Part shown: positions 1 to 25,320 of the stretch, one piece after another
How the letters are laid out: each line of letters starts with the position of its first letter
Position numbering within the stretch: position 1 is the first letter of the stretch
DNA from: a virus
Strand: one strand, 5' to 3'
DNA: 25,320 nt
Virus record (IMG/VR): IMGVR_UViG_3300044675_006292
Coordinates: 1 to 25,320 of that record
Made by a program: the position numbers and the translations under genes
Notes under the pieces: model-generated
Seen by the model: the letters and a program-made list of their open reading frames with translations, nothing else
The model's database searches: none
What the model was told of the DNA's origin: nothing

Positions 1-848
1 TCGGAATAGAAGGCATCGCCGTTGCCGTCGGTGCTACACTCCGACTCATGATACCACTCACCGTCGATGCAGCGTGCGTGGTCCTCGAAGGTGTAGTTGC
101 CATCTTCCAACGAGACCACCCTGTGGGGGTTCCTTTCGGTGTCGACGTAGCAGTTCTCGTGCTCCAGCCACACAACACCCTCGTCATCGGGCAGCGCCGT
201 GTCGGTAACTACGCCGCTGCCCCAGAAGCGGCCGCCGTAGCCGGTGCCGGTGCAGACGCCGTCGATCACAGCCAGCACGGTGTCGGCCTCCAGCACGCGC
301 CTACCATCGTGTAGCGTGACATAACCATCTTCGTCTTCCACTTCGTTCTCTTCGTCTTCAATCATAATAACAGAGGGTGGTTCAGGTAGGGCGGCGGGTG
401 CCGGTGCAGGGGGAAACAGCAGGTCGTGCGTTGCACTACCAAGGAGCACGGCGTAGTGCGTTCCGGCAGACTGGCCGTTGTAGTAGGTGCAGAAGTGCCA
501 CTCGTCATCGAACCACAAGGCTAGGTCGTTTGGGGCCAGCGGGGCTTGGGCAGCCAGCGCAAGCAGGGGACCCACACCGGCGTAGCGGTAGCCCGCGGGT
601 GCGGCAGGTGTGGGGAGCAGCAAGTCGTGCGTGCGGCTGCCAACGCGCACGCAGTAGTGCGCGCCTGCGTCAGCGCCGTTGAGTGTGAACAGCTGGCCGG
701 TCCACTGGCCATCGGTGTGGCGGCCGCAGCACAGCAGTTCTCCTGCGATGGTGTCCCGCAGGGGTGCGCCTTGTAGTGGGCCCGCACCGGCGTAAACGTA
801 GCCGGTGGGCAGGGTACGGCAAGGGGTGACTTCAATGGTGTTGCTCAT
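1..848 (-). CDS. Unknown phage protein with duplicated 70-residue module (3' end outside window)
   Basis: This reading frame starts at ATG 848-846 and stays open to the left edge, so at least 282 codons are present and the C-terminus is missing. The N-terminal half holds two diverged copies of one module, about residues 16-85 and 86-153. Both begin GYxYAGxGPL and end with an AGxHYxVxxGSxTHDLLxP pattern, and both finish in an Ala/Pro-rich linker. An acidic stretch (about 163-174) follows. The visible C-terminal part is rich in Cys, His, Asp and Glu (around residues 230-275), which could bind metal, but no known domain is recognised. There is no Shine-Dalgarno sequence; the leader is ACAA-rich. 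It is the most downstream gene visible in the leftward cluster. That it is a gene is fairly sure; its function is unknown. Confidence 0.75.
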   Translation of the reverse strand, partial: MSNTIEVTPCRTLPTGYVYAGAGPLQGAPLRDTIAGELLCCGRHTDGQWTGQLFTLNGADAGAHYCVRVGSRTHDLLLPTPAAPAGYRYAGVGPLLALAAQAPLAPNDLALWFDDEWHFCTYYNGQSAGTHYAVLLGSATHDLLFPPAPAPAALPEPPSVIMIEDEENEVEDEDGYVTLHDGRRVLEADTVLAVIDGVCTGTGYGGRFWGSGVVTDTALPDDEGVVWLEHENCYVDTERNPHRVVSLEDGNYTFEDHARCIDGEWYHESECSTDGNGDAFYS

Positions 849-882
849 CTTGTTGTATTTTGTTTGTTGTGCTGTGTCATTA

Positions 883-957
883 CAGCATACAGGGCACGCT
901 TGCGGGATGCAGGCGTGCCCTGTATGCTGCACCCGTTACCCTGCGAAGGGTAACGGG
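883..957. other. Two perfect adjacent hairpins between leftward genes
   Basis: A perfect 17-bp inverted repeat (883-899 with 913-929, 13-base loop) is followed two bases later by a perfect 11-bp one (932-942 with 947-957, 4-base loop GCGA). They fill most of the 122-base gap between the leftward genes at 971-1156 and 1-848. No U-tract follows on the minus strand, so simple intrinsic termination is not obvious; RNA processing, attenuation or transcript protection are alternatives. The 17-bp arms contain the CCCTGTAT core that recurs in other gaps. Confidence 0.75.
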
Positions 958-970
958 CACAGGGTTCGGT

Positions 971-1156: not shown

Positions 1157-1183
1157 AGGATACAGGGTTTAGGATACAGGGTT
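1157..1183. repeat. Tandem 13-mer repeat (AGGATACAGGGTT) at a gene junction
   Basis: AGGATACAGGGTT occurs at 1157-1169 and again at 1171-1183, a 14-base period. One copy abuts the start codon of the leftward gene 971-1156; the other contains the stop codon and last codons of the gene 1169-1438. On the minus strand the unit reads AACCCTGTATCCT, the same core found in hairpin arms at 883-929 and 1803-1862. Confidence 0.8.
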
Positions 1184-1438
1184 CATGTGCCGGTGCACGG
1201 CGCGCTCGAAGGCGTTCCATGCCTCCTGTGCTTGCTGCTTGCGCTGTGGTGGCAGGGCAACGACGTAACGTGTCACTTCGACACGCAGGGCGGCGAAGGC
1301 AGCGACGGGTGGTTGCCCTGTGGTGCCCACGATTTCCTGCAAGCGCACGACCCAAAGGGCGTGCGTCGTGTTGAGGTCTTGCTGTGCCTTCTCTTTTCGT
1401 CTGGCTCTGGGGGAGCCGAATGAGGATTCAATGCTCAT
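1169..1438 (-). CDS. Small unknown phage protein, 89 aa, charged and helical
   Basis: The frame extends further upstream, but the start is placed at ATG 1438-1436, because the extra N-terminal residues cross a hairpin-rich non-coding stretch and because an AC-rich leader precedes this ATG as it does the other leftward genes. The product begins MSIESSFGSPRARRKEKAQQ and has a basic N-terminus followed by predicted helical segments ending in ERAVHRHMNPVS. No conserved domain is recognised. A candidate promoter (1450-1478) lies just upstream. It is probably co-transcribed with the two genes to its left, from which it is separated by the tandem 13-mer repeat. Function is unknown. Confidence 0.6.
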   Translation of the reverse strand: MSIESSFGSPRARRKEKAQQDLNTTHALWVVRLQEIVGTTGQPPVAAFAALRVEVTRYVVALPPQRKQQAQEAWNAFERAVHRHMNPVS

Positions 1439-1449
1439 GTCTTGTTTGT

Positions 1450-1478
1450 GTTGTAACGCTGCTTCATGCAGCCGACAA
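1450..1478 (-). promoter_or_regulatory. Candidate sigma70-like promoter for the leftward small genes
   Basis: On the minus strand TTGTCG (1478-1473) and TACAAC (1455-1450) are separated by exactly 17 bases, 11 bases before the ATG of the gene at 1438. The spacer contains a small inverted repeat (GCTGC/GCAGC). The -35 match is weak (three of six), the -10 better (four of six). Confidence 0.35.
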
Positions 1479-1518
1479 AACACGCGCACCGTTTTGTGGT
1501 GAGCGTGCCCTGTAGGCT

Positions 1519-1862
1519 GCACCCCGCATCTTGTGTGGGGTGCCGGTGTGGGTCATTGGCGCATTGGGTGCCCGCTGAGTTTGCAGCGGGCATACATCGC
1601 ACTCCTTGCGGGGTGCAGGGGTTCGTGTGCCTTGCCTGCATTGCTGGCAAGGGTGCAGGCAAGCGCGTGCCCATTGCGGGCGAGCCAGCGCCGTTGGGCG
1701 CGCCGTTGGTCTGATGGCTTTGTGTTCATATGATATACCCTGCGTCATTGCAGGCTACAAGATACCCCGTGCGCGGTGTGTGCACGGGGTATCCTGTTAC
1801 CTGCACCCTGTATCCTTTGCAGGACACGGGGTGCGGGGTTAGGGTTACGGGATACAGGGTGC
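1519..1862. repeat. Cluster of hairpins carrying CCCTGTATCC-type cores
   Basis: Clear inverted repeats are: 1519-1543 (10 bp with one wobble), 1569-1592 region (TGCCCGCTG/CAGCGGGCA, 9 bp), a TTGCCTGCA/TGCAGGCAA pair around 1631-1661 (9 bp), 1761-1772 with 1782-1793 (perfect 12 bp, 9-base loop), and 1803-1815 with 1850-1862 (perfect 13 bp). The last pair can compete with a local 13-bp imperfect hairpin formed by 1805-1834, so two alternative folds are possible. Several arms contain CCCTGTATCC or its complement. Confidence 0.7.
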
Positions 1863-2126
1863 GGGAATAGATCGGCCGCGTGCCCTGTATCGGGTGGAAT
1901 TTACTTTGTGGCCCTTGTGTGTAGTTCTTGGAGTCGTGGCGGATTGGTGCGAGCGTGCCTTGTGTGCACGGTCGCGCGGACGCTATCCAAGTCTCGCGCG
2001 TGCTTTTGGAGAGACTACCTTGCACCTCTGGCTTGCTATCGCCGATGCTCTACGCGCTCACGGGGCGGTACTGCCGCTTCCCGTGTCCGGTTAGCCTACC
2101 CTTTCGGGCGGGCGCGCCTCCGGCCT

Positions 2127-2219
2127 GACAGTCTCATGACTGGTCAAGCGGGAAGCGCTTCCCAAGGCGAGCGTCCTAAGCTTAGGAGTGGCCGCGGTGC
2201 CTATTTCCGCGGGACTGTC
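2127..2219. repeat. Nested palindromes enclosed by a 7-bp inverted repeat
   Basis: GACAGTC at 2127-2133 pairs with GACTGTC at 2213-2219. Inside lie three separate palindromic elements: GGGAAGCGCTTCCC (2150-2163), CCTAAGCTTAGG (2175-2186) and CCGCGG (2192-2197) repeated at 2207-2212. The arrangement could form a cloverleaf-like structure in single-stranded DNA or RNA, or serve as protein-binding sites. No family of structured RNA is recognised. Confidence 0.55.
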
Positions 2220-2244
2220 TTAGAACGGGAATGGCTTGTGGCCT

Positions 2245-2426
2245 GCGCAATCCCCTTGCGCACCGTATGGCGGTGAATCCGTTGCGCCCCGCGTGACGGG
2301 GAGCCTTGCCCCGCCCCTTGCGTAACAAGGGGCGGAAATTTGAAGCTTTTGGCTTCCCTCCCACCTCCCCGCCATGACAGCGCGAAGGTGGGAGGGAAGC
2401 CACTAGTGTTCAAGTGAACACTAGTG
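2245..2426. repeat. Run of perfect hairpins downstream of the leftward gene
   Basis: In order: GCGCAA/TTGCGC (2245-2261, 6 bp), CCCCG/CGGGG near 2288-2302 (5 bp), CCGCCCCTTG/CAAGGGGCGG (2311-2335, perfect 10 bp), GGCTTCCCTCCCACCT and its complement (2351-2366 with 2386-2401, perfect 16 bp), then CACTAGTGTTCA/TGAACACTAGTG (2401-2426, perfect 12 bp, 2-base loop). The last two lie 11 bases beyond the stop of the leftward gene 2438-2935 and probably shape the 3' end of its transcript, although no U-run follows. Confidence 0.75.
2408..2420. promoter_or_regulatory. Palindromic 13-mer, possible operator copy 1
   Basis: GTTCAAGTGAACA is the core of the 2401-2426 palindrome and is repeated exactly at 3213-3225. 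Its dyad (GTTCA/TGAAC) is typical in form of a dimeric repressor site. The two copies bracket the leftward gene 2438-2935. No regulator gene is identified. Confidence 0.4.
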
Positions 2427-2437
2427 GCGGGGGCGGG

Positions 2438-2935
2438 TTAGCGACCCAAAACCGTGATCCAAGCAGCATATCCAACCCCTCTCTTGCCAGTGAACCGGAT
2501 CACGCGGGCGGGGAAGCCATGGAAGCCTTGCAAGGCGCGGTTGATACCAGCGGCGCGCGCCTTGTCCACTTGCGTGGAATCGGGAGGTAGGACGATAGGG
2601 GAAAGGATGCCAGCGAACTGGCGTGCGGTTGCGCCGCCCTTCAACTCCCAACCTGATTCTTTCACGTTGGTAAGGGCGGCAATCAAATATGCCCCTTGCG
2701 CTTGATTCAAGACACGCCCGCCCTTCTTGCGTGACCCGTAGACATCAGGCTCGTGATCTTCCCCGCCGTGAACGGCGGAGTCGATGATTGCTTGGGCGGC
2801 GCTAGCTTCCACTTGGAAAGCTTCCCGCCGTGACAAGCGGGATGGCGCGGCGGCGGCGGTGGCTTCAACGGCGGTGGCTTCCACAAGGGAGGGGGCGGCG
2901 GCTTTCTTGGCGGTGTTCTTGGCAATGGTGCTCAT
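2438..2935 (-). CDS. Unknown phage protein with Ala-rich N-terminal tail, 165 aa
   Basis: The start is set at ATG 2935-2933 (MSTIAKNTAKKAAAP...). The frame is open a further 26 codons upstream, but that part lies in a region with palindromes and has atypical composition. Residues 1-32 are Ala/Glu/Thr-rich low complexity with a VEATAVEATAAAA repeat; the rest (about 34-165) looks folded, with GGRVLNQAQGAYLIAAL, a likely helical ARAAGINRALQGFHG stretch and a basic C-terminal strand pair ending AAWITVLGR. I do not recognise the family. It is the first gene of the leftward side, next to the divergent control region, and is bracketed by two identical palindromic 13-mers, so early expression or autoregulation is possible but only inferred. 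There is no Shine-Dalgarno sequence. Confidence 0.75.
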   Translation of the reverse strand: MSTIAKNTAKKAAAPSLVEATAVEATAAAAPSRLSRREAFQVEASAAQAIIDSAVHGGEDHEPDVYGSRKKGGRVLNQAQGAYLIAALTNVKESGWELKGGATARQFAGILSPIVLPPDSTQVDKARAAGINRALQGFHGFPARVIRFTGKRGVGYAAWITVLGR

Positions 2936-3748: not shown

Positions 3749-3963
3749 GCTTGCCGGAAACGGTATACAAGGCGCAGCGCGCAGCGTGCGCATTAAGACA
3801 AAATACAAGCTTGACAACCCTTAGAGGGCGTGCATCAGGCAAAAAAGCTCCGTTCAGCGAACCGCGCGCAGGTCAAGCAGAATGTCTGAGCACGCGCGTT
3901 TTCCGTGCGGGGCGCAGTGTCACCGCGCGCGTGCCGGACCCCGGAAACAGGGTTCAGGAAAGG

Positions 3964-4190
3964 ATTGAACGAGGGTTCTTTTGGCCTTCGGATGACGAAA
4001 TGCGCCTGCCGAGGAAATGTGAAAAGTTTCTGGAAAGTATGTAAGTGCATTCTTTTTTGTAAGTGTCTTTCTTGAACAAAGAATTGAACGAGGGGTCTTG
4101 GGAGACTCGGATGACGAAATGCGCCTGCCGAGAAAATGTGAAAAGTTTCTGGAAAGTATGTAAGTGCATTCTTTTTTGTAAGTGTCTTTC
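3964..4190. repeat. Direct duplication of 108 bp with a 119-bp period
   Basis: Copy A (3964-4071) and copy B (4083-4190) are nearly identical over 108 bases and are separated by 11 unrelated bases. The differences cluster at the start of the unit (around 3976-3990 versus 4095-4109), where A has TTCTTTTGGCCTTCGG and B has GTCTTGGGAGACTCGG. The last 60 or so bases, including TTTCTGGAAAGTATGTAAG and a TTTTTT run, are the same apart from one base near the middle. This is a recent duplication of a non-coding unit of unknown role; origin iterons, promoter repeats or a duplicated small RNA are possible. Confidence 0.85.
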
Positions 4191-4369: not shown

Positions 4370-4654
4370 ATGAACGACATTTGCTCCGAGAAGAACCTGT
4401 TGCCCATTCCGGGATTCCCTGCCTACGCCAGCTCGCCCGACGGACTCGACGTGTGGCGCATCGTGCCAGCCCTGCGCGGACCCACCGCGGGTGTGCAGCA
4501 CCGCATGCGCCCGACGATGCACCCGCGCGGACTCGAATGGGCCTACCAGCTCAGCTCCGAGGACGGCAAGCGTTGCCGCATGCCCCTGAGCCGCTTGGCC
4601 AAACTGATGCTTGACAGCAGTCGTGGGAATTGCGATGCTACCGCTACCGAATGA
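4370..4654 (+). CDS. NUMOD4-like small protein without nuclease domain, 94 aa
   Basis: The start is ATG 4370 (MNDICSEKNLLPIPGF); it is preferred because a promoter-like pair ends eight bases before it. The segment LLPIPGFPAYASSPDGLDVWRI (written here as motif IPGFPAYASSPDG, residues about 13-25) resembles the NUMOD4 motif, a small DNA-binding module usually fused to HNH homing endonucleases. A later part, WAYQLSSEDGKRCRMPLSRL, resembles the accompanying SSDGK/R strand. No HNH catalytic residues follow, so this would be an orphan module or a domesticated DNA-binding protein. Its stop overlaps the portal start as ATGA (4651-4654), which suggests translational coupling. Family placement is tentative. 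Confidence 0.6.
   Translation: MNDICSEKNLLPIPGFPAYASSPDGLDVWRIVPALRGPTAGVQHRMRPTMHPRGLEWAYQLSSEDGKRCRMPLSRLAKLMLDSSRGNCDATATE
4611..4639 (+). promoter_or_regulatory. Candidate promoter upstream of the portal gene
   Basis: A perfect TTGACA (4611-4616) and GATGCT (4634-4639, three of six) are 17 bases apart and end 11 bases before ATG 4651. It lies within the end of the preceding gene, so it would add an internal start for the head genes. Confidence 0.35.
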
Positions 4655-6876
4655 CCGACACCACCGCCAGCGGGCTCAACGAACTTGAGCTGCTCAACCT
4701 CGACGCCGACACGGGTGCCCCACCGGAGTCCCGTTTGCGTGATGTGAAATCGGCGGTCTCGATCTACTCGACCCTCCGGCGCGCCGACGAGCGCAGCAGC
4801 GCGAACAGGGCTCGCATCGACGGGATGTTCGACGGTGTTGCTCCCTACGACCAGCGCGTGCTGCAGTCGACTGGGCAGGGATCTCGCACCAACCTGAACC
4901 TCGGCGAGGGGCAGCGTTTCTTGGACATTGCGATGTCCGCCTACGTCGACCTCTACAGCTCGCTGGAGCGTTTGGTTTCGGTCAAGGTGCGCCGCGGCGA
5001 GCCCGCCGAACGGCAGGACGCGCAGGACATCATCGGCGAGGAGATCACCCACGCCTTGCGCGAATGGCCTGAGTTCCACTCGAACTTCCTTCGCCTTTGC
5101 GGGGAGTTCACGAAGCACGGCGTTTCGGTCTCCTACTTCGATTCCCCAAGCGGTTGGAAGTTCCGTGTTTGCGGCTTCGGGGACTTCCTGATCCCACGAC
5201 AAACCGTTGCCTCCGAGGAGGGGATCGAGGTTGCCTGCGCGCGTCGTCAGTATCTGCTGCACGAACTCTACGGCTTCATTCGCGACGAGGAAGTCGCCGC
5301 CAAAGTCGGCTGGGATATCGAGGAAGTGAAGCGCGTGATCACCAAGAACGCCCGCACCACGGGGCGCTCCGGCACCACCACTTTCTCCGATTGGGAATCG
5401 ACCCAGCGGGAACTGAAAAACAACGACCTCTACACCGGAATCGAGAACACGACGGTCGAGGTATTGCACTTCTGGGTCCGTGAATTCGACGGCACGGTGT
5501 CACACTTCATCTGCGCCGAAGAGGGCGCGAAGAGCTTCATGTTCAGCAAGACGGGCATGTTCGACGCGCCTGAACAAGCATACGTTTTGTTCACTTTCGG
5601 CGTAGGCACGAACGGAACCTACCACTCGATCCGCGGGCTCGGGCATCGCATTTTCAACCACGTCCAGACCAGCAACCGCCTGCGTTGCCAGATGATCGAC
5701 GGGGCAATGCTTGCCAGCGCCGTGATGATCCAACCGGAATCCCAGCGCGCCCTTGAGGACTTGTCCTTCACGTTCTACGGCCCGTATTCGGTGCTGTCGC
5801 CGAACGTCAAGATCGTCGAGAAGGCCATCCCGAACCTCAGCAATTCGGTGCAGCCAGCCCTTGCGGATCTCCAAAACCAGCTCGCGCAGAACGTCGATTT
5901 GCTTTCCACCTACGGCCCCGCGCAGTCCTCGCCCTACCGCAACAACCTGCAGGTGGAGCACGACCTCGCCGTTGCCTCCCGCTTGAGCGGTTCGACGCTG
6001 AACCTGTTCTACGCCGCTTGGAGCCGCTTGCTTCGTGAGGTTGTTCGACGCTTTGTCACGGGCGACCGCAAGGACCGCGCGATCAAGAAATTCTTCGACC
6101 GCTGCGCCGAACGAGGCGTCAGTGCCGACACCATCAAGAGCTTGGACCCTGCGCTCACGACCGCCGTGAAAGCGATCGGTGCGGGTTCGCAAGCCAACCG
6201 TTTGCTCGCGCTGCGGGAACTCAACAACATCTCCGGCTCCTTTGACGACGTCGGTCGCCGGAACCTGATCCGCGACATCACGGCTACGCGGGTTGGCCAT
6301 GATCTCGTTGACCGCTACGCTCCGGCTGCGCCAGAACCCCGTTTGACCGTCGATGCGAAGATCGCGATGATGGAGAACCAAGCGATGTCCTCGGGCACGC
6401 CCATTCCCGTGCTCGACAACGAGCTTCACGGCATGCACCTGCGCGTGCACGCCCCAGAACTGCAGCAGCTCCTTGCCGCCGTGCAGACCGGCGCAGCGGA
6501 CCCCGTGCAGGTCCTGCCAATCGTGCAGTTGCACTACGAGCACGTCATGCAACACTTGCAGTTCCTGTCGAGCGACCCCGCGGCACGGGGCCAAGTTTCC
6601 GAGCTCAAGCAGCTCACGCAGATCGCCGAAGAGGTCATCACCAACACGGGTCGCAAAATACAAGCCATGCAGCGCAAGCAGCAGGAAGGCGCTGCTGCCC
6701 CTGAAGGACAGCCGCAGGGGCCGACACCCGCCGAGCTGAAGTTCCAAGAGCACGAACTCAAGATGTCGATTGCCCGCCAGAAGGCTGAACTCGACATGCA
6801 GATCCGCGAAGCCAAGTTCCAGCAGGAGCAAGCGATCAACGACGCCAAGGGTGCCGTTTCTCTTGCGCGCGTTTAA
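4651..6876 (+). CDS. Portal (head-to-tail connector) protein
   Basis: This 741-residue protein is placed as the portal by its size, by its position ahead of scaffold and capsid genes, and by its sequence character: an N-terminal SIYSTLRRADERSS helix, EGQRFLDIAMSAYVDLY (about residues 84-100), a long central domain, and a charged C-terminal coiled coil (about 690-735, ELKMSIARQKAELDMQIREA). Portals form the dodecameric ring at one capsid vertex through which DNA is packaged and ejected. A TTG seven codons upstream is possible, but ATG 4651 gives the ATGA overlap with the preceding gene and avoids an unlikely extra stretch. No terminase gene is next to it, so packaging genes must lie elsewhere. 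The call rests on architecture and recognised style rather than a motif search. Confidence 0.8.
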   Translation: MTDTTASGLNELELLNLDADTGAPPESRLRDVKSAVSIYSTLRRADERSSANRARIDGMFDGVAPYDQRVLQSTGQGSRTNLNLGEGQRFLDIAMSAYVDLYSSLERLVSVKVRRGEPAERQDAQDIIGEEITHALREWPEFHSNFLRLCGEFTKHGVSVSYFDSPSGWKFRVCGFGDFLIPRQTVASEEGIEVACARRQYLLHELYGFIRDEEVAAKVGWDIEEVKRVITKNARTTGRSGTTTFSDWESTQRELKNNDLYTGIENTTVEVLHFWVREFDGTVSHFICAEEGAKSFMFSKTGMFDAPEQAYVLFTFGVGTNGTYHSIRGLGHRIFNHVQTSNRLRCQMIDGAMLASAVMIQPESQRALEDLSFTFYGPYSVLSPNVKIVEKAIPNLSNSVQPALADLQNQLAQNVDLLSTYGPAQSSPYRNNLQVEHDLAVASRLSGSTLNLFYAAWSRLLREVVRRFVTGDRKDRAIKKFFDRCAERGVSADTIKSLDPALTTAVKAIGAGSQANRLLALRELNNISGSFDDVGRRNLIRDITATRVGHDLVDRYAPAAPEPRLTVDAKIAMMENQAMSSGTPIPVLDNELHGMHLRVHAPELQQLLAAVQTGAADPVQVLPIVQLHYEHVMQHLQFLSSDPAARGQVSELKQLTQIAEEVITNTGRKIQAMQRKQQEGAAAPEGQPQGPTPAELKFQEHELKMSIARQKAELDMQIREAKFQQEQAINDAKGAVSLARV

Positions 6877-6880
6877 CACT

Positions 6881-7414
6881 ATGCCAGCCCCAACTAACAA
6901 AGACATCGATGGTACGCTGAGCGCGTTGTCGTGGGCTCCCGAACTCATAATCGCACGGGAACGACTACAAGCGAGGGGCCTCGGGGCCAAGGCAAACTTG
7001 GCTAAATCTCTGCTGAAAAAGCTCCCCCGGGGAGCCGCCGCCCTAGAACTCGGGCTTCACGCGATTGAGGCTGCGCGCATAGCCAACAGTCCTGAAGTTC
7101 GCGAATCCAGAGTCGCGGAAGCTGAGGACCTCTCGAAGAAGGGCGTCGCGCAAAGACTCTTTGCAGCCTACGATAATCCAGTCGGGCTAGTCTACGGGAC
7201 TGGGGCTTTAGTGAAGGAAGCCGAAGACACGAGGAGCGACCCCCGCCTCCGAGAGCAGGACCTTGCTTACTTGAAATGGCGGGCCGAGCGGGACTTCGCA
7301 GCCTCGCGGAAAGCCCAAAAAGCTGGTGCCCAGCAGAAGAGCCGCTCTGCGATGATTCGCGACATGGCTGGAGCAAACCGCATGCGCCCAAATCTTTTGA
7401 CAACAAAAGATTGA
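6881..7414 (+). CDS. Unknown protein in the head module, 177 aa
   Basis: ATG 6881 lies four bases after the portal stop, so the two are probably translated together. The product (MPAPTNKDIDGTLSAL...) is helical and basic: a hydrophobic helix pair around residues 40-70 (GAKANLAKSLLKKLPRGAAA) is followed by charged helices and a Lys/Arg/Gln-rich C-terminus (about 135-160). Codon use is less GC-rich at third positions than in the portal. I do not recognise a family. The position suggests a head-associated or internal virion protein, but a later insertion between portal and scaffold genes would also fit. The TGA stop overlaps the -35 box of the next candidate promoter. Confidence 0.7.
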   Translation: MPAPTNKDIDGTLSALSWAPELIIARERLQARGLGAKANLAKSLLKKLPRGAAALELGLHAIEAARIANSPEVRESRVAEAEDLSKKGVAQRLFAAYDNPVGLVYGTGALVKEAEDTRSDPRLREQDLAYLKWRAERDFAASRKAQKAGAQQKSRSAMIRDMAGANRMRPNLLTTKD

Positions 7415-7446: not shown

Positions 7447-7779
7447 ATGCCAGCCCGCCGAACCCGTAGCCCCCGCGCCGCTGCACCACCCACAGTGCCG
7501 GTGCCCCGAAAGCTGGAACGCTGGTTCCAAGACCCGATCATGGTCTCCCGCCTTCGAGAGCTGTTGAGCGAGGAAGCTTTCCAAGTAGCACAGGCCACCT
7601 TGCTTGACGCCGCGCTACCCACCTACGCGCACCTGAACCGGCCCAACGAGGAGAACGTGTTGCGACACGCTTGGCTCGCCGGTTACCGCGATGCCCTACG
7701 CGACCTTCTCGCCCTTACCGTGGCTCCTGCCGCGCGCAACCGAGACCTGCCCGAAGAATGGGCACACATCGAAGACTAA
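7447..7779 (+). CDS. Unknown head-module protein, 110 aa
   Basis: The start is ATG 7447, preferred over longer in-frame options that overlap the previous gene because a -10-like box ends seven bases before it. The first 20 residues are Arg/Pro/Ala-rich and probably disordered; then come helices (WFQDPIMVSRLRELLSEEAF, residues about 28-47; ENVLRHAWLAGYRDALRDLL, about 74-93). The pattern H-WLAGYRDAL is typical of small helical phage proteins encoded between portal and scaffold, but I cannot name it. It ends five bases before the scaffold ATG, so coupling is likely. Confidence 0.75.
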   Translation: MPARRTRSPRAAAPPTVPVPRKLERWFQDPIMVSRLRELLSEEAFQVAQATLLDAALPTYAHLNRPNEENVLRHAWLAGYRDALRDLLALTVAPAARNRDLPEEWAHIED

Positions 7780-23701: not shown

Positions 23702-24214
23702 GTGGTTGAGGTCAAAATAGATAGAGATACACGCCTGCGCGCTGCCGAGGATGCGCGCAAAATGGGGGTCCTAAACGGCTCTTTGAGGGGTGGGCGCGGG
23801 AACATCTACGGGATGCTGGGTGAGGTCCTCGCCCACGCCTACCTCGGCGGTGAACGCGTCGGCGCGCAGAGGTTCAGCTGCGACATCGTGCTGCCGGACG
23901 GTAGGACGATTGATGTCAAAACCGGTTCCGGCAAAAACAAGCCGCTACCCCACTACGCGGCACGGGTCTACGGATCTGAAGCCCAGCGCGAGGGCATCGG
24001 TAGCAAGTGCGATGGATATTTTTTCGTCCGGTGCCACGAGAACAAGCACTTGCTCTGGTTGCTCGGCTGGCTGCCCGCTGATGAGTTTGTGCAAAAAGCA
24101 ACCTTCCACCCACAAGGTTCCGTGAACCCCGTAGATGGAAGGTTGTGTCGTTCCGACGAATACGTGGTTCCGGTTTCGGAACTCAGGCACCCGCGGTCTC
24201 TGCTGAGCCGGTGA
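23702..24214 (+). CDS. PD-(D/E)XK nuclease-like protein, 170 aa
   Basis: The start is GTG 23702; the nearest ATG (23697) is in another frame and stops at once. The product shows the nuclease core: YGMLGEVLAHAYLG with Glu41, FSCDIVLPDG with Asp61, and IDVKTGSGK with Asp71-Val-Lys73, followed by a strand and helix (GYFFVRCHENKHLLWLLGWL). This is typical of phage PD-(D/E)XK endonucleases related to resolvases or DNA-processing nucleases, which cut DNA with Mg. It is the last gene of the rightward block and its final 32 bases overlap the 3' end of the leftward helicase gene. Substrate is unknown. Confidence 0.75.
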   Translation: MVEVKIDRDTRLRAAEDARKMGVLNGSLRGGRGNIYGMLGEVLAHAYLGGERVGAQRFSCDIVLPDGRTIDVKTGSGKNKPLPHYAARVYGSEAQREGIGSKCDGYFFVRCHENKHLLWLLGWLPADEFVQKATFHPQGSVNPVDGRLCRSDEYVVPVSELRHPRSLLSR

Positions 24215-25320
24215 ACTCTTGGTCGATGTCGTAGTCAGGGGAAAGATCAATCTCCCAGATCTTGCCACCACCACGACCGAAGCTCCGAACCGGACGGATG
24301 TGCTTGTTGTGCATGCAGACTTCTTCGATTACGGTCATGCCCCGTCGAATGAATTCGAGGTTCACGCTGTTCCCGACCGACCGACCCGCGTTGCAGTCAT
24401 GCAGCGTGACCTGAAACTCGGTGAGCGTCCCGCGCCACGTTGCCCGCTCGGTGTGCTCGCGGACCCGCTTGCTGAAGAACTCGATCATCTCGGCAATCGC
24501 GCTACGGCTGGAGTTGTCGTAGGCGGCGGCTTCCACGAAGGAGTCCACGTAGGTTGCGACCCCGAAACGGCTTGAATCCAACACGTAGTCGGGAGCTTGC
24601 CAGTCGCTGAGCCACTTCAGGAAGAAGGGCAGCTCCCTGCGGATCGTTGCTTCGTTCTGATCATTGGTGCCGAACTTCATTTTGAACGCGCTGTTGACCC
24701 GAAGCGCGATCACCTTGTCGCGATTGCTGCTATCGAGTGTAGGCAGCGCGGCGAGCGAATTGGCGTCGATGTTCAGGGACATCATGACCCGACCCGCCCA
24801 CGGTAGCGGAATGGTATCGGCATACTTGGCTTGATACTCAAGACGCGGATTGGCCACGCACCGTTTGGTGAGCTCGACGAACTTGCGCTGGTCGGCATAG
24901 GTGGCGGCGGCGGTGGAGTCGTCAATCACCCACGCTGCTGCTCCGCAGAGGTCACGATTAAAACTGGTCTTGCCGGACAAGTATTCACTTGCATCAGCGA
25001 AACCACCCACCGCGCCTGCGACAAGCTGGTTCGTGAGCAATGACTTCCCATATCCGGTCGGGCCCAACAAGATCAGCAGTTGCCCTTGATCCAGACGGTT
25101 TTCGAGAGCCGCCAGATAAAGGCGGCGGAACCATGCGAGGAAGTAGGGTAGTGTCTCTCGATCATCGTCATCCTTCGCGAAGAAGTTTGACAGGAACATG
25201 TCGAGCCACGGCCAGTTCGCCGGATCACCATTCGCGGCGGGCTTCACCGGAATGGCCTTGCAGTTGTTCAGGATCTTCCTGCCGTTGAAGTCAACAACAC
25301 GTTTGCTGCTGAACACGACT
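24183..25320 (-). CDS. SF3-type helicase / primase-helicase (DUF5906-like), 5' part outside window
   Basis: The frame is open to the right edge (a GTG lies at 25316 but the codon before it is in frame), so the N-terminus is missing. The visible 378 codons hold a P-loop ATPase core: GPTGYGKS Walker A (about residues 85-92 counted from that GTG), AAWVIDDS Walker B-like (about 127-134), VMMSLN motif C-like (about 177-182) and SSNRDKVIALRV (about 197-208) with an Arg in the usual finger position. This order matches superfamily 3 helicases and D5/DUF5906 phage primase-helicases that unwind DNA at replication forks. The C-terminal third (about 250-377) includes winged-helix-like sequence. It indicates that replication genes are transcribed leftward. 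Confidence 0.85.
   Translation of the reverse strand, partial: VVFSSKRVVDFNGRKILNNCKAIPVKPAANGDPANWPWLDMFLSNFFAKDDDDRETLPYFLAWFRRLYLAALENRLDQGQLLILLGPTGYGKSLLTNQLVAGAVGGFADASEYLSGKTSFNRDLCGAAAWVIDDSTAAATYADQRKFVELTKRCVANPRLEYQAKYADTIPLPWAGRVMMSLNIDANSLAALPTLDSSNRDKVIALRVNSAFKMKFGTNDQNEATIRRELPFFLKWLSDWQAPDYVLDSSRFGVATYVDSFVEAAAYDNSSRSAIAEMIEFFSKRVREHTERATWRGTLTEFQVTLHDCNAGRSVGNSVNLEFIRRGMTVIEEVCMHNKHIRPVRSFGRGGGKIWEIDLSPDYDIDQEFTGSAETAGA

Follow-up and report, generated by a model that had tools for sequence, protein, structure and literature searches.

The window analyzed here is the whole 25,320-nucleotide stretch of a virus contig with a record length of 25 kb. Its open reading frames (ORFs) and their homology indicated that the genes run leftward to the left of 3 kb and rightward to the right of 4.6 kb. 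The window DNA showed no similarity to cultured-phage records or plasmids, the portal-like protein (window 4630–6876, named from its position and size only) found no match among phage records by tblastn, and most window proteins were without a match in a PHROG search. These DNA, tblastn, and PHROG searches suggest a phage group without cultured relatives. In IMG/VR, 42 loci are related to the portal-like protein: L013, on a contig of 63,246 bp, shares 99% identity and is the single close relative, L006–L012 share approximately 70%, and the remaining loci approximately 60%. Scans with a left-arm protein, the element DNA pattern, and the 58-aa protein described below matched only the contig of L013, while the first leftward protein gave zero matches as a scan query. 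Relatives of the portal-like protein are also carried by two MAG contigs, from Opitutae and Acidimicrobiaceae; these may be binned phage contigs, and for this reason no host is named here.

The gap at 1439–2437 contains, along the leftward transcript, E5, E4, an unstructured stretch, E3, a 58-aa gene, and E2, followed by an 89-aa gene. The features of the gap and its surroundings are as follows:

2438–2935, minus strand: first leftward gene (165 aa), an ORF that the leftward transcript reaches before the gap
2311–2432, minus strand: E5, three stable hairpins (z = −9.6), without a U-tract
2060–2170, minus strand: E4, structured block (z = −4.0 for the element, −5.7 for a 120-nt window)
1863–2040, minus strand: unstructured stretch with weak likeness to L013, e.g., GAATAGATCGG and CGCTATCCAA
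1749–1862, minus strand: E3, two-hairpin leader of the 58-aa gene (z = −8.0), covarying with the E1, E2, and L013 copies
1553–1729, minus strand: conserved 58-aa gene, from codon comparison with L013
1467–1543, minus strand: E2, two-hairpin leader of the 89-aa gene, from fold and covariation
1439–1466, minus strand: A-rich leader without a Shine-Dalgarno sequence before the ATG at 1438, from the sequence
1169–1438, minus strand: 89-aa gene downstream of E2, conserved in L013
971–1156, minus strand: 61-aa gene, conserved among the 70% relatives
883–957, minus strand: E1, two-hairpin leader element outside 1439–2437 (z = −9.4; covariation)
849–882, minus strand: A-rich leader of E1, from the sequence
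3–848, minus strand: leftward gene led by E1, running off the window, no family found

The original prediction had described the gap as free of credible genes. Comparison with L013 revealed a conserved ORF of 58 aa inside it (1553–1729, minus strand), whose last 26 residues are identical in L013, with 10 nucleotide differences that are all synonymous (p ~2e-7); alternative frames lose identity. The protein belongs to no Pfam family, and its sole relative was found in the contig of L013. This gene corrects an annotation gap and splits the "non-coding" kilobase. A conserved coding frame across the region, named beforehand as evidence against a structural role, is present across part of the region only. 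The 89-aa gene differs from its L013 counterpart by 22 synonymous and 10 non-synonymous codon changes. The 165-aa first leftward protein has no Pfam or PHROG match, and L013 carries an ORF of similar length at its place, a putative counterpart by position. In L013, the first leftward gene is flanked by a 22-bp perfect inverted repeat (6963–6984 and 7591–7612); no such flanking repeat was found in the window.

Perfect stems were counted in 1439–2437 with loops of up to 60 nt and compared with 200 dinucleotide shuffles. The region contains 15, 10, 8, 6, and 4 perfect stems of at least 7, 8, 9, 10, and 12 bp, respectively, where the shuffles gave 3.5, 1.0, 0.24, 0.05, and 0. The 8 stems at the 9-bp threshold, where the shuffles gave 0.24, bear out the excess that had been predicted, and the predicted stem lengths of 6–16 bp were about right, the longest perfect stem being 17 bp (2350–2366 paired with 2386–2402). 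Two counted stems, 1569–1592 and 1631–1663, fall within the ORF of the 58-aa gene. The folding z-score of the whole region is −14.4 on the minus strand and −11.3 on the plus strand (20 shuffles). Analysis in 120-nt windows located structured blocks at approximately 1441–1560 (minus-strand z = −4.6), 1681–1920 (down to −7.8), 2041–2160 (minus-strand z = −5.7), and 2281–2460 (down to −9.4), and a similar block outside the region at 841–960 (minus-strand z = −10.5). Overlapping windows at approximately 1561–1680, within the 58-aa ORF, are structured too, while 1861–2040 and 2161–2280 fold at the background level. The region thus consists of separate blocks and not of one continuous structured locus, as had been supposed.

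A search of the window with the Rfam 15 covariance models found no family at the gathering score, in agreement with the earlier failure to recognize an RNA family, and a large known non-coding RNA or riboswitch family was rejected as a candidate. No tRNA or tmRNA is present in the window. Among the relatives, L013, L009, and L018 gave no match at threshold and L012 gave one tRNA; the sub-threshold matches are weak and chiefly to microRNA hairpin models. A single large functional non-coding RNA spanning the gap would account for the very low folding energy computed over the entire region, yet we consider it highly improbable: a conserved gene lies inside, the structure is split into separate blocks, the L013 gap is very different in length and interior, and no Rfam model matched at threshold.

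E1–E3 share a layout in which hairpin b and hairpin a are followed by a start codon. A basal stem closes the pair in most predictions; it is not predicted for E2 of the window. The leaders of E1 and E2 are A-rich; E3 is without a long A-rich leader. No Shine-Dalgarno sequence was found at the start codons of E1, E2, or E3, nor at the window gene starts examined on both strands. When hairpin a of E1–E3 was aligned with the L013 copies (six sequences, with one close relative), 96.9% of the cells were paired and 5 pairs were doubly changed, a covariation score reached by 0 of 500 shuffles. Sliding the partners by 1–3 columns lowered the pairing to 27–46%, and the wobble cells are all G-U in the mRNA sense. 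The covariance comparison of homologues proposed in the original prediction thus yielded compensatory changes. Together with the G-U pairs, which lie on the mRNA (minus) strand, and the placement of the elements ahead of start codons, these changes support both strong selection for structure and the assignment of the structure to the RNA of the leftward transcript. E5 begins about a dozen nucleotides past the stop codon of the first leftward gene, and in L013 its place is taken by a hairpin that is perfectly palindromic and unrelated in sequence.

The same plan recurs with other sequences in the relatives, where lineage words were counted if they lay within 90 nt of a leftward ATG. In L006 and L008–L012, the spaces between leftward genes repeatedly carry a hairpin built around CTTATTC...GAATAAG. 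Across 21 leader copies of the L006–L012 element, all 238 of 238 pair cells are formed and 11 cells are doubly changed, with 0 of 500 shuffles reaching the score; 19 copies immediately precede a leftward ATG, from which a short A-rich leader separates them, and the other 2 are at record ends. The L018 word, GTTTGGAT...ATCCAAAC plus GCTACC...GGTAGC, lies within 20–38 nt of an ATG in 8 of 8 copies, and an AAAGGA-type Shine-Dalgarno sequence comes after it. Since L018 has a Shine-Dalgarno sequence, its host and that of the window probably differ. The word TTAACAACTCAGTTGTTAA or close variants precedes an ATG in 10 of 12, 13 of 14, and 11 of 14 copies in L015, L045, and L046, respectively; in these left arms the palindromic word around it occurs 12–14 times per record, with some tandem pairs. 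The L041 word, GCTTAATGCGGACGCACTAAGC, precedes a leftward ATG in 4 of 5 copies, and the loose pattern of L042 in 2 of 8. Related lineages thus iterate their own unrelated hairpin words approximately 20–50 nt upstream of leftward ATGs. Over 33 loci (L018 excluded), the left 6 kb contain 438 perfect hairpins against 117 expected, and the right 6 kb 188 against 110. By mechanical gene calls, 41% of the leftward genes have a hairpin at −110 to −1, as do 15% of the rightward genes; the leftward hairpins peak at approximately −80 to −20, and 59% of the leftward genes are without such a hairpin. The layout is common to these lineages and its sequence differs between them, a pattern suggestive of selection on the shape of the RNA in the leftward operon.

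An RNA hairpin tolerates a G-U mismatch but not an A-C mismatch. Near-perfect hairpins with at least 10 Watson-Crick pairs and one mismatch were therefore compared between the two arms. Left-arm mismatches comprise 61 that are G-U on the leftward mRNA and 20 of the opposite kind; as these counts include iterated copies and related genomes, the tally by loci, 20 against 2, is the better figure. Right-arm mismatches show the reverse, 2 against 13. This bias, reversing with the direction of transcription, indicates that the structures act in the sense mRNA and not as a replication or packaging site, which had been among the original proposals. Both marks of functional RNA structure, compensatory changes and sense-strand G-U pairs, are present. 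The contigs that bear short end repeats (33 bp in G001, 77 bp in G009 and in G010) fit closed maps that place the locus in the interior, a position that argues weakly against a replication or packaging locus. A DNA-level locus, such as a replication origin or packaging site, would fit the perfect palindromes and the nearby divergent gene junction (approximately 3–4.6 kb) with its tandem repeat; we nevertheless give it very little credence, because both arms have their wobble-type mismatches on the sense strand, the hairpin copies track start codons, and the end-repeat contigs are consistent with an internal position. The tandem repeat comprises two copies of a 119-bp unit (window 3959–4190) between the divergent gene sets, and is also found in L013. 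Intrinsic terminators of the leftward transcript were rejected, as no minus-strand terminator was found and the hairpins are not followed by a U-tract. No sigma-70-type promoter was found on the minus strand.

Analysis of G009, the whole contig of L018, revealed an extreme case. In its leftward operon, perfect hairpins of at least 6 bp number 183 across approximately 11.7 kb, genes included (approximately 39.0–50.8 kb in the orientation used; L018 1–9000), with a median spacing of 44 nt against an expectation of about one per kb. Within coding sequence, there are 124 hairpins against 16.0 (sd 3.7) after codon-preserving shuffling. This carpet is confined to the leftward operon, and a scan for a second carpeted genome matched only G009/L018 itself. 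The stems are almost all perfectly Watson-Crick, with few wobble pairs; the strand bias within G009 (22:8) is modestly decided, and the group-wide test described above was used instead. G009 raises the question of why a DNA phage folds one operon over its full length.

One possible answer is that the operon RNA is folded as a whole against an RNA-level threat from the host, with the one or two leader hairpins that precede genes in many members as the mild form and the nearly continuous carpet of G009, which extends through coding sequence, as the extreme form. Evolving local hairpins would then fold the leftward mRNA, pairing being selected and sequence left free; the threat might be a ribonuclease, a defence system that targets RNA, or the loading of Rho onto C-rich RNA that is not translated. 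The number of G009 hairpins, their coding excess, and their restriction to the leftward operon speak for this explanation, which we hold only tentatively and judge rather unlikely, as the carpet occurs in one genome only, the window's leftward genes show no hairpin excess in coding sequence, and the hairpins of most members concentrate at −80 to −20 of starts. Alternatively, template-switching mutation could create perfect palindromes in the leftward arm without selection, which would suit the nearly exclusive Watson-Crick pairing in G009. It would not explain wobble-type mismatches that are strand-biased with transcription, stems that covary between old copies, copies that track start codons, or coding hairpins that are compatible with conserved proteins, and we regard it as a poor candidate.

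Comparison of the window and L013 revealed that the two are alike through E2 to the ATG, where homology stops. In L013, this ATG opens another, extra gene (180 aa, 5105–5647), and the 89-aa gene comes next; the gap interior beyond 1670 is largely replaced. The PeSL of T4-type phages is described, in the passages of PMC4503421 that cite Arbiol et al. 2010 and Comeau et al. 2014, as an early promoter plus a terminator-like stem-loop. To the extent of that account, in both systems a variable early region has stem-loops between its small genes, and modules may be exchanged. They differ in that the minus strand here yielded neither a sigma-70-type promoter nor a terminator, the minus-strand hairpins being without a following U-tract, and in that the hairpins lead the downstream gene. 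For shuffling itself, the E2/ATG junction in L013 is the one clear case; it favors a shuffling role without establishing one. The hairpins could be PeSL-like shuffling cassettes whose repeated words provide recombination homology, with gene exchange mattering more than mRNA control and the benefit arising in a fast-evolving arm. The different gene behind E2 in L013, the end of homology at the ATG, the replaced gap interior, and the near-identical words iterated within each lineage would all follow. Recombination, however, needs sequence identity rather than pairing, the compensatory changes and sense-strand wobble bias require RNA structure, no promoter was found, and one junction was examined; we consider cassettes of this kind doubtful.

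From the observed position, fold, covariation, and strand of the leader hairpins, we lean toward reading the hairpins as modular 5′-leader or intergenic RNA elements of a polycistronic leftward mRNA, which separate, protect, and present its cistrons. We infer the operon, its promoter, and its timing from gene order. A typical module would run hairpin, hairpin, short leader, ATG, and small ORF. The hairpins would mark processing or decay boundaries between cistrons (RNase III- or RNase E-type) and would leave the leader accessible, so that ribosomes can load in the absence of a Shine-Dalgarno sequence, while the boundary between element and start codon would act as a swap point for gene modules. 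Because L018 combines a Shine-Dalgarno sequence with the same layout, a role in its absence cannot be the whole reason for the hairpins. E4, E5, and 1863–2040 fall outside this leader-layout explanation.

Known systems resemble these modular leaders in part. RNase III processing hairpins lie between the early genes of the polycistronic transcript of phage T7; here too, hairpins lie between cistrons of a polycistronic phage transcript, but two hairpins stand close to the next start codon, the sequence is lineage-specific, and cleavage is only a candidate function. RNA viruses have genome-scale ordered RNA structure, which the hairpin-carpeted coding RNA of G009 recalls; G009, however, is a dsDNA phage with short, perfect, local hairpins in one operon, and these were not observed in the window's genes. 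In cluster K mycobacteriophages, SAS/ESAS are inverted repeats iterated immediately upstream of the start codons of many small genes, according to the passages of PMC12699233 that cite Pope et al. 2011. Inverted-repeat pairs lie close upstream of start codons here as well. Their length and sequence are not those of ESAS, one or two compact covarying hairpins are present with a word that varies by lineage, and most elements of the phage group are without the Shine-Dalgarno-like SAS; the SAS motif GGGATAGGAGCCC, allowing up to 2 mismatches, has 0 matches in the window. As the SAS motif is absent and neither the promoter nor the terminator part of a PeSL was found, no membership is claimed. Cluster K ESAS and T4-type PeSLs are nearest in layout and T7 RNase III sites nearest in possible mechanism. 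Searches of the open-licence literature found a direct precedent neither for hairpin leaders specific to a lineage nor for a hairpin-carpeted phage operon. The same RNA layout, repeated before many genes of uncultured dsDNA phages with its sequence replaced by lineage, provides a natural system for studying the role of leader hairpins in polycistronic mRNA, with or without Shine-Dalgarno sequences.

Other features were observed elsewhere in the window and its relatives. A primase-like protein is encoded at window 24183–25319 (minus strand), matching Pfam DUF5906 above the cut-off and, weakly, a PHROG DNA primase. A leftward protein of L013 (1690–2685, minus strand) combines a glutamine amidotransferase-like part (below the cut-off) with a gamma-glutamyl cyclotransferase domain. 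The tRNA match of L012 (8044–8134, plus strand) lies between the divergent gene sets of that relative.
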